Below, in pieces: positions 1,865 through 6,123 of a stretch of 43,586 bases of DNA. Source of the stretch: Candidatus Nealsonbacteria bacterium (GTDB taxonomy: Bacteria; Patescibacteriota; Minisyncoccia; Minisyncoccales; JAGGXC01). The notes under the pieces are model-generated. The model did not search any database. It was not told the DNA's origin and saw only the letters and a program-made list of their open reading frames with translations. Position 1 is the stretch's first letter. Each line of letters begins with the position of its first letter. The position numbers and the translations under genes were made by a program. The stretch spans positions 1 to 43,586 of the forward strand of contig JAPLXH010000009.1 in assembly GCA_026396195.1 (NCBI GenBank). Reading direction: 5' to 3'.

Positions 1865-1878
1865 TCATGCGAGAAGCC

Positions 1879-1987
1879 TGACTGAGAGGCATCAACGGGG
1901 AAGCCCGAAAATCGTTGAAATTCCCTTTAAAACCTTGGTTCTCTCGGCCGTAGCCTACGAGCGAGGCTAGACCGAGGATGCCAGCAG
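1879..1987 (+). repeat. Structured repeat, copy 1 (covarying stem/pseudoknot candidate)
   Basis: It matches 5397-5475 closely. Stem 1892-1897 (TCAACG) pairs with 1913-1918 (CGTTGA). The loop run GGGAA at 1898-1902 can pair with TTCCC at 1921-1925, giving a pseudoknot-like topology, or CGGG-GAAG-CCCG can form a local hairpin. It is followed by a second hairpin around 1941-1976 built from CTCGG/CCGAG and TAGCCT/AGGCTA. In the other copy the first stem is changed on both sides. Confidence 0.7.
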
Positions 1988-2040: not shown

Positions 2041-2206
2041 ATTGCCATCGTCGCTTTTTTAAGCGATCCCTATTTATGGGGCAGAAAGTGGGGTCAGATT
2101 CCCCGGCTGTGCCGCAACGGTAATGTCCGCATTTTTGTCGGAATAAGCCCGAATATTGTTTGGCAATAAGCGTCCCGAGCAGGACAAATTGCGGATTTTT
2201 ATCTGT
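2041..2206 (+). promoter_or_regulatory. Cobalamin (B12) riboswitch
   Basis: A closing stem ATTGCCA (2041-2047)/TGGCAAT (2161-2167) encloses the diagnostic core: a GGGGTCAGATTCCCC-like arm, CGGCTGTGCCG, then GCAACGGTAA (2114-2123) and AAGCCCGAATA (2145-2155), close to the B12-box consensus. A short hairpin GTCC-CGAGCA-GGAC (2172-2185) after the aptamer is placed like the regulatory hairpin whose loop kisses L5 in this class. An intrinsic terminator follows at 2207-2235. Ligand class is from family knowledge. Transcription termination when cobalamin is bound is inferred from the layout. Confidence 0.85.
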
Positions 2207-2235
2207 AATCTTTCCTGTTTCGGGAAAGATTTTTT
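2207..2235 (+). terminator. Riboswitch expression-platform terminator
   Basis: AATCTTTCC (2207-2215) pairs with GGAAAGATT (2223-2231) across a 7-nt loop and is followed by a T run, ending 5 nt before the first ATG of the operon. It fits an OFF-switch terminator of the cobalamin riboswitch. Confidence 0.8.
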
Positions 2236-2239
2236 GTTT

Positions 2240-2788
2240 ATGAATAATTTTATAAGCGAAAATAAGAAATTATTAATTATTTTTTTTATTTTTTTAAATC
2301 TTGCAATTGCAAGTTATATTTACATAAATCAAAGTGCAGTAATTAAAAATCCGAATTATTCGCAAAGGCAAATACTAGATGGTCAGAATCAACTAAATAT
2401 AAGACAGGTTCAACAAGGAAGTGCGGTTTCAGAAGAAAATCTTAAAATATCCAAATCCACATCAACTTCATCCGAAACCGAATTATCAAGCGAGCGACAT
2501 ATCATATATGTCGGTGAAAAAAAATATGAAATTTCAGTTCCGGAAAAAAGCACAGTTTATGAATTGATGGACTTGCTTAAAGCGAGAGGTGATTTTAGTT
2601 TTCAAGGGAAAGATTTTTCAGGACTAGGTTTCTTTGTCGAGGAAATTAATGGAATAAAAAACAATCCCAGTGGAAAGACTTACTGGATCTACTACGTAAA
2701 TGATAAATCGGCTCAGGTCGGAATTTCTAATTATACTTTAAAACCAAACGATGTAATAAATTGGAAATATGAAAAACCTCAATTCTAA
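2240..2788 (+). CDS. Membrane-anchored DUF4430 (transcobalamin C-terminal-like) protein
   Basis: I start it at the ATG after the riboswitch terminator; longer frames would begin inside the aptamer. The 182-residue product has an N-terminal membrane anchor (about residues 10-28), a Ser/Thr-rich linker, and a C-terminal ~85-residue domain with YELMDLLKA, GLGFFVEEINGI and TYWIYYVND motifs. These are hallmarks of DUF4430, the beta domain of transcobalamin/intrinsic factor. It overlaps the next gene by 20 bp, so the two are co-transcribed and probably co-translated. Its position under a B12 riboswitch supports a role in cobalamin or corrinoid capture at the cell surface (inference); binding itself is not shown. 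Confidence 0.8.
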   Translation: MNNFISENKKLLIIFFIFLNLAIASYIYINQSAVIKNPNYSQRQILDGQNQLNIRQVQQGSAVSEENLKISKSTSTSSETELSSERHIIYVGEKKYEISVPEKSTVYELMDLLKARGDFSFQGKDFSGLGFFVEEINGIKNNPSGKTYWIYYVNDKSAQVGISNYTLKPNDVINWKYEKPQF

Positions 2789-5387
2789 AATTTTACTTTT
2801 TTTAATTTGTTTTGGTTTGTTCATGTTTGTCTCGCAAACCAAAGCTGAAGGAACAACTACAGTTCAATTAAAAGTTGTCGCCTTTGACCAAGTTTTGTTT
2901 AATAACGATTTTATAGTGAATTCTTGTCCTGACCAAGCAAGTAGCACAAATTACTCTTTAAACGCCTGGTGCGCCGTTGAGCAATTAATTTCCAGTCAGG
3001 GCTGGACCGCGACTTCAACTTGGTATCCATACGGCGTAATGCTAAACACTATAAATCAATACGAAGGAGGCTACAACAATTACTGGCTTTGGTTTAGCAA
3101 TTCTGAACCGGGCGAAACCGCGTTAAATCAACACCTACTTTCCGATGGCGAAAAACTACTGCTTTCTTTTGGAACAAGTCCGCTTAAGATAATAGCTTCC
3201 GCAACCTCGTCATATATTAATTCTACAACAACCTTAAATGTTTTATATTTTGACACTTCTTTCTGGCGATGGCAGCCGGCAACGGACAGCACTTTTTCAA
3301 TTAATGGCCAGGAAATTTCCAGCACAAGCGGGGCTTATGAATTATGGACTAATACCACCACGGCTTATGAAATTTTTGCAAAAGAAACAGGGTTTATTGA
3401 CAGCGAATTAATAACAATTAATCCTCAATTGCCGTCAGCAAATATTAATTTGCGGATTGAAACTGCAAGCTCGACTATATTCAACCAGAATCTTGCCGTT
3501 TTAGCTTGTGAAGAAAATGTCGGTAGCGGCACCTATAGTCTGAATGGCAGATGCGCCGTGTTACAATCTGGGCTTGCAAACCAATGGACGAGCTGGGGGA
3601 GTGATTTATTTTTAGATTCGATTGCAGATTATATAAATAATCAAAATAATAACGGAATTTATTGGAGCTGGTTTAAAAATCTTGATTACGGCCAAACGGC
3701 GCTAAACAAGTATATTTTAAGCGAAAATGAAGATTTGCTTCTTATTTACGGCATAAATCCTTTAAGGATTACAACCTCCACCACAACTCCGCTTTTAAAT
3801 AGCACAACTACTTTATATTTGGAGCAATTTGGCTATGACTCTGGCTGGAATCCTGTTTGGCAACCGTCCGCCAGTAGTACATTTTTAATCAATGGTCAGG
3901 AATTTTATTCTCAAGAGGGTATTGTACAACTACCCATTGCGACAACTAGCCCGTATTTGGTTTTAGGACGCAAGGCTGGATATTTAGACAGCTCGACTTT
4001 AACTCTGACTGGAATTTTTCAGAATGAAACCTCGAGCCAGCCGACTACTCCGGACAATCCAGTCGGCGGTTCTGGTAGTCCAAGTTTTAATACGAGCGAT
4101 GCGCCGACACACCATACCGTAGATATAAATAAAGCTATAAATTTTCTGATTTTAAATCAAAATAACGATGGTTCAATCGGTTCTTCGATTATTTATTCCG
4201 ATTGGGCTGCAATTGCTCTCTCTGCTTTTGGCAGCGGTGATGCACAAAATAAATTAAAAAATTATTTATCAGGAGCTGGGTATAATACCAATGGGAGTGT
4301 TACAGACCTCGAAAGAAGGGCGATGGCTCTGATGGCGCTTTCGGTTGATCCATACAGTGAAACCGCGACCGATTATATTTCAAAAATTGTTTTGGCTTTT
4401 GACGGAACACAAATTGGCGATTCCAGTCTTTTCAATGATGATATCTTTGCGTTATTTCCCTTATTAAAAGCCGGATATTCTGGTTCAGATCCGATTATTA
4501 GCGCAACCGTAAGATTTATCATTTCAAAACAAAGCGTAAACGGTTCGTGGGGCAATATTGATTTGATGGCAGCCGCCATACAAGCGCTTTCTCTTGCAAA
4601 AAAGACCGGAAATTTAGATACAGATATTGTAAATTCAATTAACCAATCCCTGCAGTCTGCGAAGAATTTCTTAAAAAATTTTCAAGGGGCAAATGGTGGT
4701 TTTAACAACGATACAATATCAACCTCATGGGCAGTTCAGGCGATCTTAGCTTTAGGCGAACAGGTTTTGGATTGGGAAAACAATGGAAACAACCCTTTTG
4801 ATTTTTTAACTTCTCGCCAAAATGGCGATGGTGGGTTTGAAGATACATCTGTTGCCGTAGATACCAGGATTTGGACTACTGCTTATGTTATTCCGGCCGC
4901 GCTGGGTAAAACCTGGGATGAAATAATGGGAAGTTTTCAAAAAAAAGTTCAAAATTCTCAAAGTCAAGATGACGATGTAAACAATTTATCTATCAGCACC
5001 AGTTCTGTTTCTGATTTATCCGCCTCCACCAGCTTAACTTTTGCTAATACCTCAATAAATGAAAATATATTGACAATTAAAAATGCGACCTCAGCGGAGT
5101 TAATTCTTGGAACATCAACGGCTCCCAATAAAATCCTACCGCAAATTACTGCTGAGCAAAATTTATCAGTCGGAGAATCAGTAAATTCTATACAACAAAA
5201 TGAGCCGAATAAAGAGAATGATTTAAAAAATCTTACTGCCCAAATAAGCAACAGTATTAACATTGACTATTCCTTAAGCGAAAAAACGATAAAAATAATA
5301 TTTTATTTCTCGGCTGGCGCCTCTTTCTTATTAGGGTTATATTTGACTATAAAATTTATAATGTCTCGTTTTATGTTAAAATCGTAA
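2769..5387 (+). CDS. Large surface protein: DUF4430-like repeats plus transcobalamin-type alpha/alpha barrel
   Basis: The 872-residue product has a signal peptide (residues ~5-26, ending QTKAEG) and two tandem ~200-residue units. Each unit holds a DUF4430-like module (YSLNAWCAVEQLI... and YSLNGRCAVLQSG..., then YWLWFSN/YWSWFKN and GETALNQ/GQTALNK) followed by a beta-rich STTTL module with an INGQE motif. From ~residue 450 comes an alpha/alpha-barrel region with prenyltransferase-like repeats (INFLILNQNNDGSIG, AKNFLKNFQGANGGF, FDFLTSRQNGDGGF). A Ser/Asn-rich linker and a C-terminal TM helix (~845-865) follow. Barrel plus DUF4430 is the architecture of animal transcobalamin, here in reversed order and membrane-anchored. 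B12 binding is inferred from fold and riboswitch control. No ABC or ECF B12 transporter is adjacent. Confidence 0.75.
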   Translation: MKNLNSKILLFLICFGLFMFVSQTKAEGTTTVQLKVVAFDQVLFNNDFIVNSCPDQASSTNYSLNAWCAVEQLISSQGWTATSTWYPYGVMLNTINQYEGGYNNYWLWFSNSEPGETALNQHLLSDGEKLLLSFGTSPLKIIASATSSYINSTTTLNVLYFDTSFWRWQPATDSTFSINGQEISSTSGAYELWTNTTTAYEIFAKETGFIDSELITINPQLPSANINLRIETASSTIFNQNLAVLACEENVGSGTYSLNGRCAVLQSGLANQWTSWGSDLFLDSIADYINNQNNNGIYWSWFKNLDYGQTALNKYILSENEDLLLIYGINPLRITTSTTTPLLNSTTTLYLEQFGYDSGWNPVWQPSASSTFLINGQEFYSQEGIVQLPIATTSPYLVLGRKAGYLDSSTLTLTGIFQNETSSQPTTPDNPVGGSGSPSFNTSDAPTHHTVDINKAINFLILNQNNDGSIGSSIIYSDWAAIALSAFGSGDAQNKLKNYLSGAGYNTNGSVTDLERRAMALMALSVDPYSETATDYISKIVLAFDGTQIGDSSLFNDDIFALFPLLKAGYSGSDPIISATVRFIISKQSVNGSWGNIDLMAAAIQALSLAKKTGNLDTDIVNSINQSLQSAKNFLKNFQGANGGFNNDTISTSWAVQAILALGEQVLDWENNGNNPFDFLTSRQNGDGGFEDTSVAVDTRIWTTAYVIPAALGKTWDEIMGSFQKKVQNSQSQDDDVNNLSISTSSVSDLSASTSLTFANTSINENILTIKNATSAELILGTSTAPNKILPQITAEQNLSVGESVNSIQQNEPNKENDLKNLTAQISNSINIDYSLSEKTIKIIFYFSAGASFLLGLYLTIKFIMSRFMLKS

Positions 5388-5396
5388 TATAGGCCT

Positions 5397-5475
5397 AGAC
5401 CGAGAGGCGTCAGTGGGGAAGTCCGAAAATCACTGAAATTCCCTTTAAAATCTCGGTACTAGACCGAGAATTCCA
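5397..5475 (+). repeat. Structured repeat, copy 2
   Basis: It is the second copy of the element at 1879-1987. Stem 5410-5415 (TCAGTG) pairs with 5431-5436 (CACTGA). GGGAA at 5416-5420 and TTCCC at 5439-5443 are unchanged. The second hairpin TCTCGGT-ACTAG-ACCGAGA is a perfect 7-bp stem. CTAGACCGAGA occurs at both ends of this copy. Confidence 0.7.
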
Positions 5476-5827: not shown

Positions 5828-6067
5828 ATGAATCAACTTGATATTTTTAATGTTCTAAATGCATTAATAAGTATGCCTATGCGCGCTTTAAGAGGTGATC
5901 CTCTTGGCATTTTATTTGTCTTTTTTGCATGTTTATTAATATTTCTTATTTTTCGCGCTTTTTTACTTTGGTATTGGAAAATCAGTAGAATCGAAAAATT
6001 ATTAGAAGAAATAGCAGCTAATACAAAAAAAGAATCAAAATCGAAAGAAGAATTTCCTGGATTATAA
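5828..6067 (+). CDS. Small one-TM protein of unknown function
   Basis: The 79-residue product has a strongly hydrophobic segment (about residues 26-50, GILFVFFACLLIFLIFRAFL) followed by a charged, probably helical tail (KISRIEKLLEEIAANTKKESK). I do not recognise the family. It is a membrane-anchored coiled-coil-like miniprotein of a kind common in reduced genomes. No clear Shine-Dalgarno precedes it. It follows the 63-bp terminator module, whose TGATAGAAT may serve as its promoter. Confidence 0.55.
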   Translation: MNQLDIFNVLNALISMPMRALRGDPLGILFVFFACLLIFLIFRAFLLWYWKISRIEKLLEEIAANTKKESKSKEEFPGL

Positions 6068-6092
6068 AATAATTTATGTTAGATTTTAATTA

Positions 6093-6123
6093 AATAGGTT
6101 ATAACTTCATCCAAGCCTCGCAG
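6093..6123 (+). repeat. Degenerate tRNA-Gln 3'-end-like motif, copy a
   Basis: AATAGGTT followed by TCCAAGCCTCGCAG (6110-6123), which matches the T-stem/acceptor end of tRNA-Gln (1170-1183) at 13 of 14 positions. Confidence 0.45.

Follow-up and report, generated by a model that had tools for sequence, protein, structure and literature searches.

A cobalamin riboswitch ahead of a predicted transcobalamin-like surface protein pair in a Patescibacteria genome

The 43,586-nucleotide stretch of DNA analyzed here (the window) corresponds to contig C9 in a draft genome of Candidatus Nealsonbacteria bacterium, which counts 792,064 bases in 13 contigs and is 98.7% complete. Near one end it carries a cobalamin (B12) riboswitch, a terminator-like hairpin and two genes, here called P1 and P2, whose predicted products resemble the parts of animal transcobalamin. 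Its nearest named relatives are metagenome-assembled genomes (MAGs) of Candidatus Paceibacterota/Parcubacteria, which places the organism in the Patescibacteria; it is probably a host-dependent bacterium with a small genome. The unit is made up of the following features, where aa denotes amino acids and AF2 the AlphaFold2 model m307b50b34131.

2077..2184, + strand: cobalamin (B12) riboswitch aptamer (lineage covariance model R1; Rfam AdoCbl-II core at 2066-2144)
2207..2236, + strand: intrinsic terminator-like hairpin and T-run, the expression platform, just 5' of the P1 start
2240..2788, + strand: P1, 182 aa, N-terminal hydrophobic anchor and a single DUF4430 domain (transcobalamin beta-domain-like, SLBB; PF14478)
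2769..5387, + strand: P2, predicted 872-aa surface protein (AF2, relatives)
2769..2843, + strand: P2 signal peptide, ~aa 1-25 (hydrophobic helix 2-21 in the model; sequence ...SQTKAEG)
2850..3197, + strand: P2 beta-grasp (DUF4430-like) unit 1, aa 28-143 (AF2, profile matches)
3198..3434, + strand: P2 putative immunoglobulin-like (Ig-like) beta domain 1, ~aa 144-222 (all-beta, predicted local distance difference test, pLDDT, ~90 or more)
3435..3779, + strand: P2 beta-grasp (DUF4430-like) unit 2, ~aa 223-337 (AF2, profile, Foldseek)
3780..4013, + strand: P2 putative Ig-like beta domain 2, ~aa 338-415 (AF2)
4122..4928, + strand: P2 12-helix alpha6/alpha6 barrel (toroid), aa 452-720 (AF2, Foldseek, sub-threshold PF01122)
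5286..5372, + strand: P2 C-terminal transmembrane helix, ~aa 840-868 (model helix 837-871; AF2)

A gathering-level Rfam scan of the whole window returned a tRNA as its sole match and no riboswitch, and a search of the whole genome with RF00174 gave no match. With permissive settings, cmscan of positions 1861-2400 did find RF01689 (AdoCbl-II) at 2066-2144 (E 9e-4), yet its 25.9 bits lie below the gathering threshold of 36.5 bits. Since the gathering-level search missed the window riboswitch, a lineage-specific covariance model was needed; this model, R1, was made from 11 riboswitches, each ahead of a P2 relative in another genome, with the window copy excluded. R1 matches positions 2077-2184 with 63.2 bits (E 4.4e-13), which is its only match in the entire genome. 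The cobalamin riboswitch claimed in the initial annotation is thus present as a significant match, although its core had to be repositioned to a start near 2066-2077.

Several relatives have a riboswitch in the corresponding place that passes the Rfam threshold of RF01482, RF01689 or RF00174, and such relatives are among the sources of R1; the conserved core and covarying stems of the window aptamer are homologous to these bona fide cobalamin riboswitches. Across 45 aligned aptamers, 90.1% of the structure cells pair, a figure that leans towards the model because the alignment was fitted to it. Two-sided changes were seen in 113 cells compared with 37.6 after shuffling, and covariation was 0.383 against 0.137 shuffled and at most 0.105 with the partners slid. 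The riboswitches vary in layout among relatives: one (L039:4710-4924; 76.6 bits) carries roughly 100 extra bases in a peripheral stem with the remaining core intact, and L050 carries tandem cobalamin riboswitches on the minus strand (5319-5439 and 6003-6102), one preceding a small DUF4430-like gene and the other the barrel gene.

The terminator platform that had been proposed was found as a hairpin and T-run with the layout AATCTTTCCTG TTT CGGGAAAGATT TTTTG, directly ahead of the P1 start. Such a hairpin lies within 110 nucleotides 3' of the aptamer at 34 of 43 loci, the window counted, compared with 49 of 860 shuffles. A cobalamin riboswitch with its expression platform thus sits 5' of a putatively B12-related gene, the terminator being followed by P1. 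Aptamer and terminator are arranged as in a transcriptional OFF switch, a direction suggested by the layout. Pairing of the terminator loop with the conserved 3' aptamer segment was inspected, was inconsistent across loci and is not claimed.

The most likely start of P1 is ATG 2240, which gives 182 amino acids, as the TTG at 2156 that would open a longer open reading frame (ORF) lies inside the aptamer; the ATG also aligns with the start in the close relative L071. By ORF coordinates, P1 and P2 overlap by 20 bases, in line with the two overlapping genes described initially, and Pfam finds the single DUF4430 domain expected in the first of them (PF14478, E 6e-18). P1 is conserved among the aligned relatives (alignment A6). 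While phmmer with P1 alone against the PDB gave nothing useful, a profile of P1 relatives had gastric intrinsic factor as its best PDB match, with a marginal E of 0.05 and over the correct domain.

The AlphaFold2 model of P2 was made from a 25-sequence alignment and has a mean pLDDT of 80, with 462 residues at 90 or more. It contains every part that the initial annotation had named, i.e., two DUF4430-like units, an alpha/alpha barrel, a signal peptide and a C-terminal transmembrane helix; that list had omitted two all-beta domains among the beta units and the barrel, which we infer from the model to be Ig-like. The barrel consists of twelve helices from residue 453 to about 711, and a disordered linker (729-839) separates it from the C-terminal helix. 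By profile comparison, the two beta-grasp units match one another (E 5e-37), and each also matches P1 (unit 2, E 1.3e-6; unit 1, E 4e-6). The best PDB matches of a separate model of unit 2 in Foldseek were nearly all transcobalamin or intrinsic factor, and the full model matched transcobalamin and haptocorrin with E 4e-6 to 2e-5 and TMt up to 0.52. Compared with transcobalamin, as the initial annotation had advised, the P2 model therefore has both a beta domain and a barrel of the transcobalamin type. Neither of the two outcomes that the initial annotation had named as refuting its reading was thus obtained, and the reading is supported. By sequence, Pfam gave just PF01122 (Cobalamin_bind) on P2, sub-threshold at 18.3 bits against a cut-off of 25.

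Among 286 genomes sampled from the class, 25 encode a P2-like protein; 27 genomes had matched, and two were dropped because the match was confined to the DUF4430-like part. A 22-sequence alignment held no stretch conserved enough for scanning the collection, and a 5-sequence alignment worked. The proposed survey for the same riboswitch-gene pair showed that the arrangement is widely kept among 52 named P2 relatives: 40 have a riboswitch upstream of P2 on the coding strand (E <= 2e-8), with no strong match on the opposite strand at any of the 52 loci, and in 43 P1 lies no more than 250 bases from P2, several of the others being cut by contig ends. The beta units precede the barrel in the window and in L034-L043, while the animal order, barrel then DUF4430, is seen in L044-L056. 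One relative with 73% identity has the riboswitch (L070:3805-4001) directly ahead of P2, and P1 is absent there. Riboswitch, P1 and P2 also occur on L120, a contig labelled Bacteroidetes bacterium Cfx2-01, which is probably a Patescibacteria contig within a mixed MAG.

The genes around P2 in relatives include a membrane protein of family DUF6580, which lies downstream of P2 in ten of the 52 named relatives and follows a DUF4430 gene in further ones. In the genome of the window, DUF6580 is found on contig C1, where a second DUF4430 gene and a gene for a B12-binding radical-SAM protein lie next to it. A profile of 16 DUF6580 proteins had one match only in the PDB, 6FNP chain A (CbrT, E 6e-4); the alignment covers CbrT residues 10-130, and the match includes the compositional bias of membrane proteins. 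CbrT is the B12-specific S-component of an energy-coupling factor (ECF) transporter, and solitary CbrT gave no growth support (PMC5997447). PduO adenosyltransferase (PF01923) was detected in 14 of the 25 barrel-positive genomes compared with 41 of the 261 others (Fisher p 1.8e-5, uncorrected for phylogeny), and its gene adjoins a riboswitch gene in genomes G241 and G249. In L040 and L041, the riboswitch that precedes the P1-P2 pair directly follows a PduO adenosyltransferase gene. In another relative, the riboswitch is immediately preceded by a gene (L037:4025-4546) whose product has a borderline match to an ECF riboflavin S-component (26.6 vs 26.7 bits). Thioredoxin-like and DsbB-like genes stand behind P2 at L037:7491-8424 and L038:1601-2531, and P2 proteins of the window type have a conserved cysteine pair in the beta units; together, these suggest dedicated disulfide formation. 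Gene content of the organism's own genome was judged by targeted family searches. CbiC (PF02570), a single marker for B12 synthesis, had no match there while control genomes did match, which supports the earlier proposal that the organism makes no cobalamin.

Predicted fold, riboswitch and neighboring genes are independent routes that point in the same direction. We consider it likely that P1 and P2 form a cobalamin-repressed surface system which scavenges cobalamin or related corrinoids. At high intracellular cobalamin, the aptamer at 2077-2184 would bind it and the terminator at ~2207-2236 would halt transcription, while low cobalamin would allow P1 and P2 to be produced. On the outer face of the membrane, P1 would present its beta domain from an N-terminal anchor, and P2 its two beta domains, Ig-like spacers and barrel from a C-terminal transmembrane helix. 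Cobalamin or a related corrinoid might then be held by the barrel and one of the beta-grasp domains, lodged between the two in the manner of transcobalamin, and passed on to a small permease in the membrane, for which the DUF6580 protein is the probable candidate; both the hand-over and the permease role are conjectural. The fuller picture, in which Patescibacteria possess a riboswitch-controlled, membrane-tethered transcobalamin with modular beta domains partly on a separate protein, feeding a CbrT-like DUF6580 protein without a canonical ECF module, is tentative, and we hold it to be possible rather than probable.

Several results weigh against such a scavenging system. EcfT/CbiQ (PF02361) had no match in the organism's own genome, which leaves the energizing of uptake unaccounted for. 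Adenosyltransferases of both types and NrdJ, sought as indicators that the cofactor is used, also gave no match there; three B12-binding radical-SAM proteins are consequently the sole candidate cobalamin users found. The genome sequence is itself a draft of about 98.7% completeness, and the window aptamer does not reach the threshold of Rfam clan CL00101. For the beta domain, the Foldseek matches of unit 2 have a probability of up to 0.85 and a TM score of ~0.5, with a weak E of 0.1-2. The barrel likeness is common to terpene cyclases and to the TED domains of complement/alpha-2-macroglobulin proteins, both of which the full P2 model also matches in Foldseek. By sequence profile against the PDB, the closest matches of the barrel are squalene-hopene cyclases (E 2e-30), as expected since all belong to one toroid superfamily.

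Among other explanations, the one that survives best is that the pair binds another ligand or surface, for instance cobinamide or other corrinoids only, a haem-like tetrapyrrole, or a host cell wall as an adhesin, and is merely co-regulated with cobalamin status. SLBB beta-grasp domains have varied ligands (PMC1796856), the related transporter CbrT also takes cobinamide as a substrate (PMC5997447), and Ig-like domains in a multidomain surface architecture would fit adhesion. We nevertheless regard this as unlikely, given that direct riboswitch control is kept in 40 of 52 relatives, that both transcobalamin-type domains occur together, that a CbrT-like DUF6580 gene adjoins in ten relatives, and that adenosyltransferase is associated with barrel-positive genomes. 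It is far less likely still that the RNA is a degenerate, non-functional riboswitch remnant. The window copy is sub-gathering in Rfam and scores 63 bits with R1, lower than most relatives (up to 96), but it keeps the conserved core and an intact terminator, and L071, a close relative, scores alike (60.7 bits) and retains the terminator. Least plausible is a catalytic role, in which the barrel would be no carrier but a terpene cyclase/prenyltransferase superfamily enzyme: the squalene-hopene cyclases are its top profile matches and SQHop_cyclase_C was matched in 20 of 22 relatives, but the predicted extracellular location, the riboswitch control and a DUF4430 match in 25 of 25 barrel-positive genomes all speak against it, and DxDD, the acid motif of squalene-hopene/terpene-type cyclases, is not conserved (IDLM/IDLT in the window and L034 in the alignment). 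Location, the fused DUF4430 and the riboswitch were the reasons for setting aside both terpene cyclase and complement TED as identities for the barrel.

The scavenging system proposed here has precedents. Burroughs et al. 2007 (PMC1796856) described bacterial proteins in which an SLBB domain and an alpha/alpha toroid are fused, with either one coming first; they are secreted or anchored at the surface, and their operons often encode another extracellular SLBB protein. The genomes that carry them lack B12 synthesis, and the fusions were predicted to be B12 scavengers. The P2 model, with extracellular SLBB beta-grasp units fused to an alpha/alpha toroid, P1 as the second extracellular SLBB protein and a genome without CbiC (one marker) agree with that description. 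Here, however, the system occurs in Patescibacteria, is preceded by a cobalamin riboswitch and has duplicated beta units spaced by putative Ig-like domains. CbiO/CbiQ neighbors are listed for the earlier systems as a general, not defining, feature (PMC1796856), whereas EcfT/CbiQ is absent here and DUF6580 recurs instead. DUF6580 is homologous to the S-component of the ECF-CbrT transporter (6FNP), but the organism's own genome has no EcfT match. The animal proteins transcobalamin, intrinsic factor and haptocorrin share the alpha6/alpha6 barrel and the DUF4430 beta domain, with Foldseek matches for both, and the two domains of transcobalamin sandwich B12 (PMC1796856). In contrast to them, the window P2 has the reversed order, two beta units and a membrane anchor, its PF01122 match is sub-threshold, and binding is predicted; the Group-B relatives within the class have the animal order. 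Compared with the cobalamin riboswitch clan CL00101 (RF00174, RF01482, RF01689), core sequence, stems, position and terminator are alike, while the window copy is divergent and under the Rfam cut-off.

The initial annotation had called the reversed order and membrane anchoring unusual. That point is weaker, as Burroughs et al. 2007 (PMC1796856) reported fusions in both orders and surface anchors, and both orders occur within the class; the reversed order is therefore not new. New here are the phylum, the riboswitch control, the domain make-up and the DUF6580 link, and the part of the literature that was searched contained no paper on such proteins in Patescibacteria, on the riboswitch linkage or on DUF6580.

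The riboswitch-P1-P2 unit is flanked by two same-orientation copies of a short palindromic element (window 1876-1942 and 5393-5460), which are 84% identical over 68 bp (E 1e-13) and each lie right behind a stop codon. The element was not found in the other loci compared, and is possibly similar to repetitive extragenic palindromic (REP) sequences or miniature inverted-repeat transposable elements (MITE), or a 3' untranslated region element.

The P1-P2 pair would represent a concrete B12 acquisition system for Patescibacteria, a group in which the dependence on nutrients is largely deduced from missing pathways. The conserved riboswitch ties DUF4430, the bacterial toroid fusions and DUF6580, which are uncharacterized or only predicted, to cobalamin, and the varied architectures offer natural experiments on rearranging the barrel and beta domain of the human B12 carriers. 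If DUF6580 does work without a canonical ECF module, this would be a distinct route of B12 uptake in reduced, dependent bacteria.

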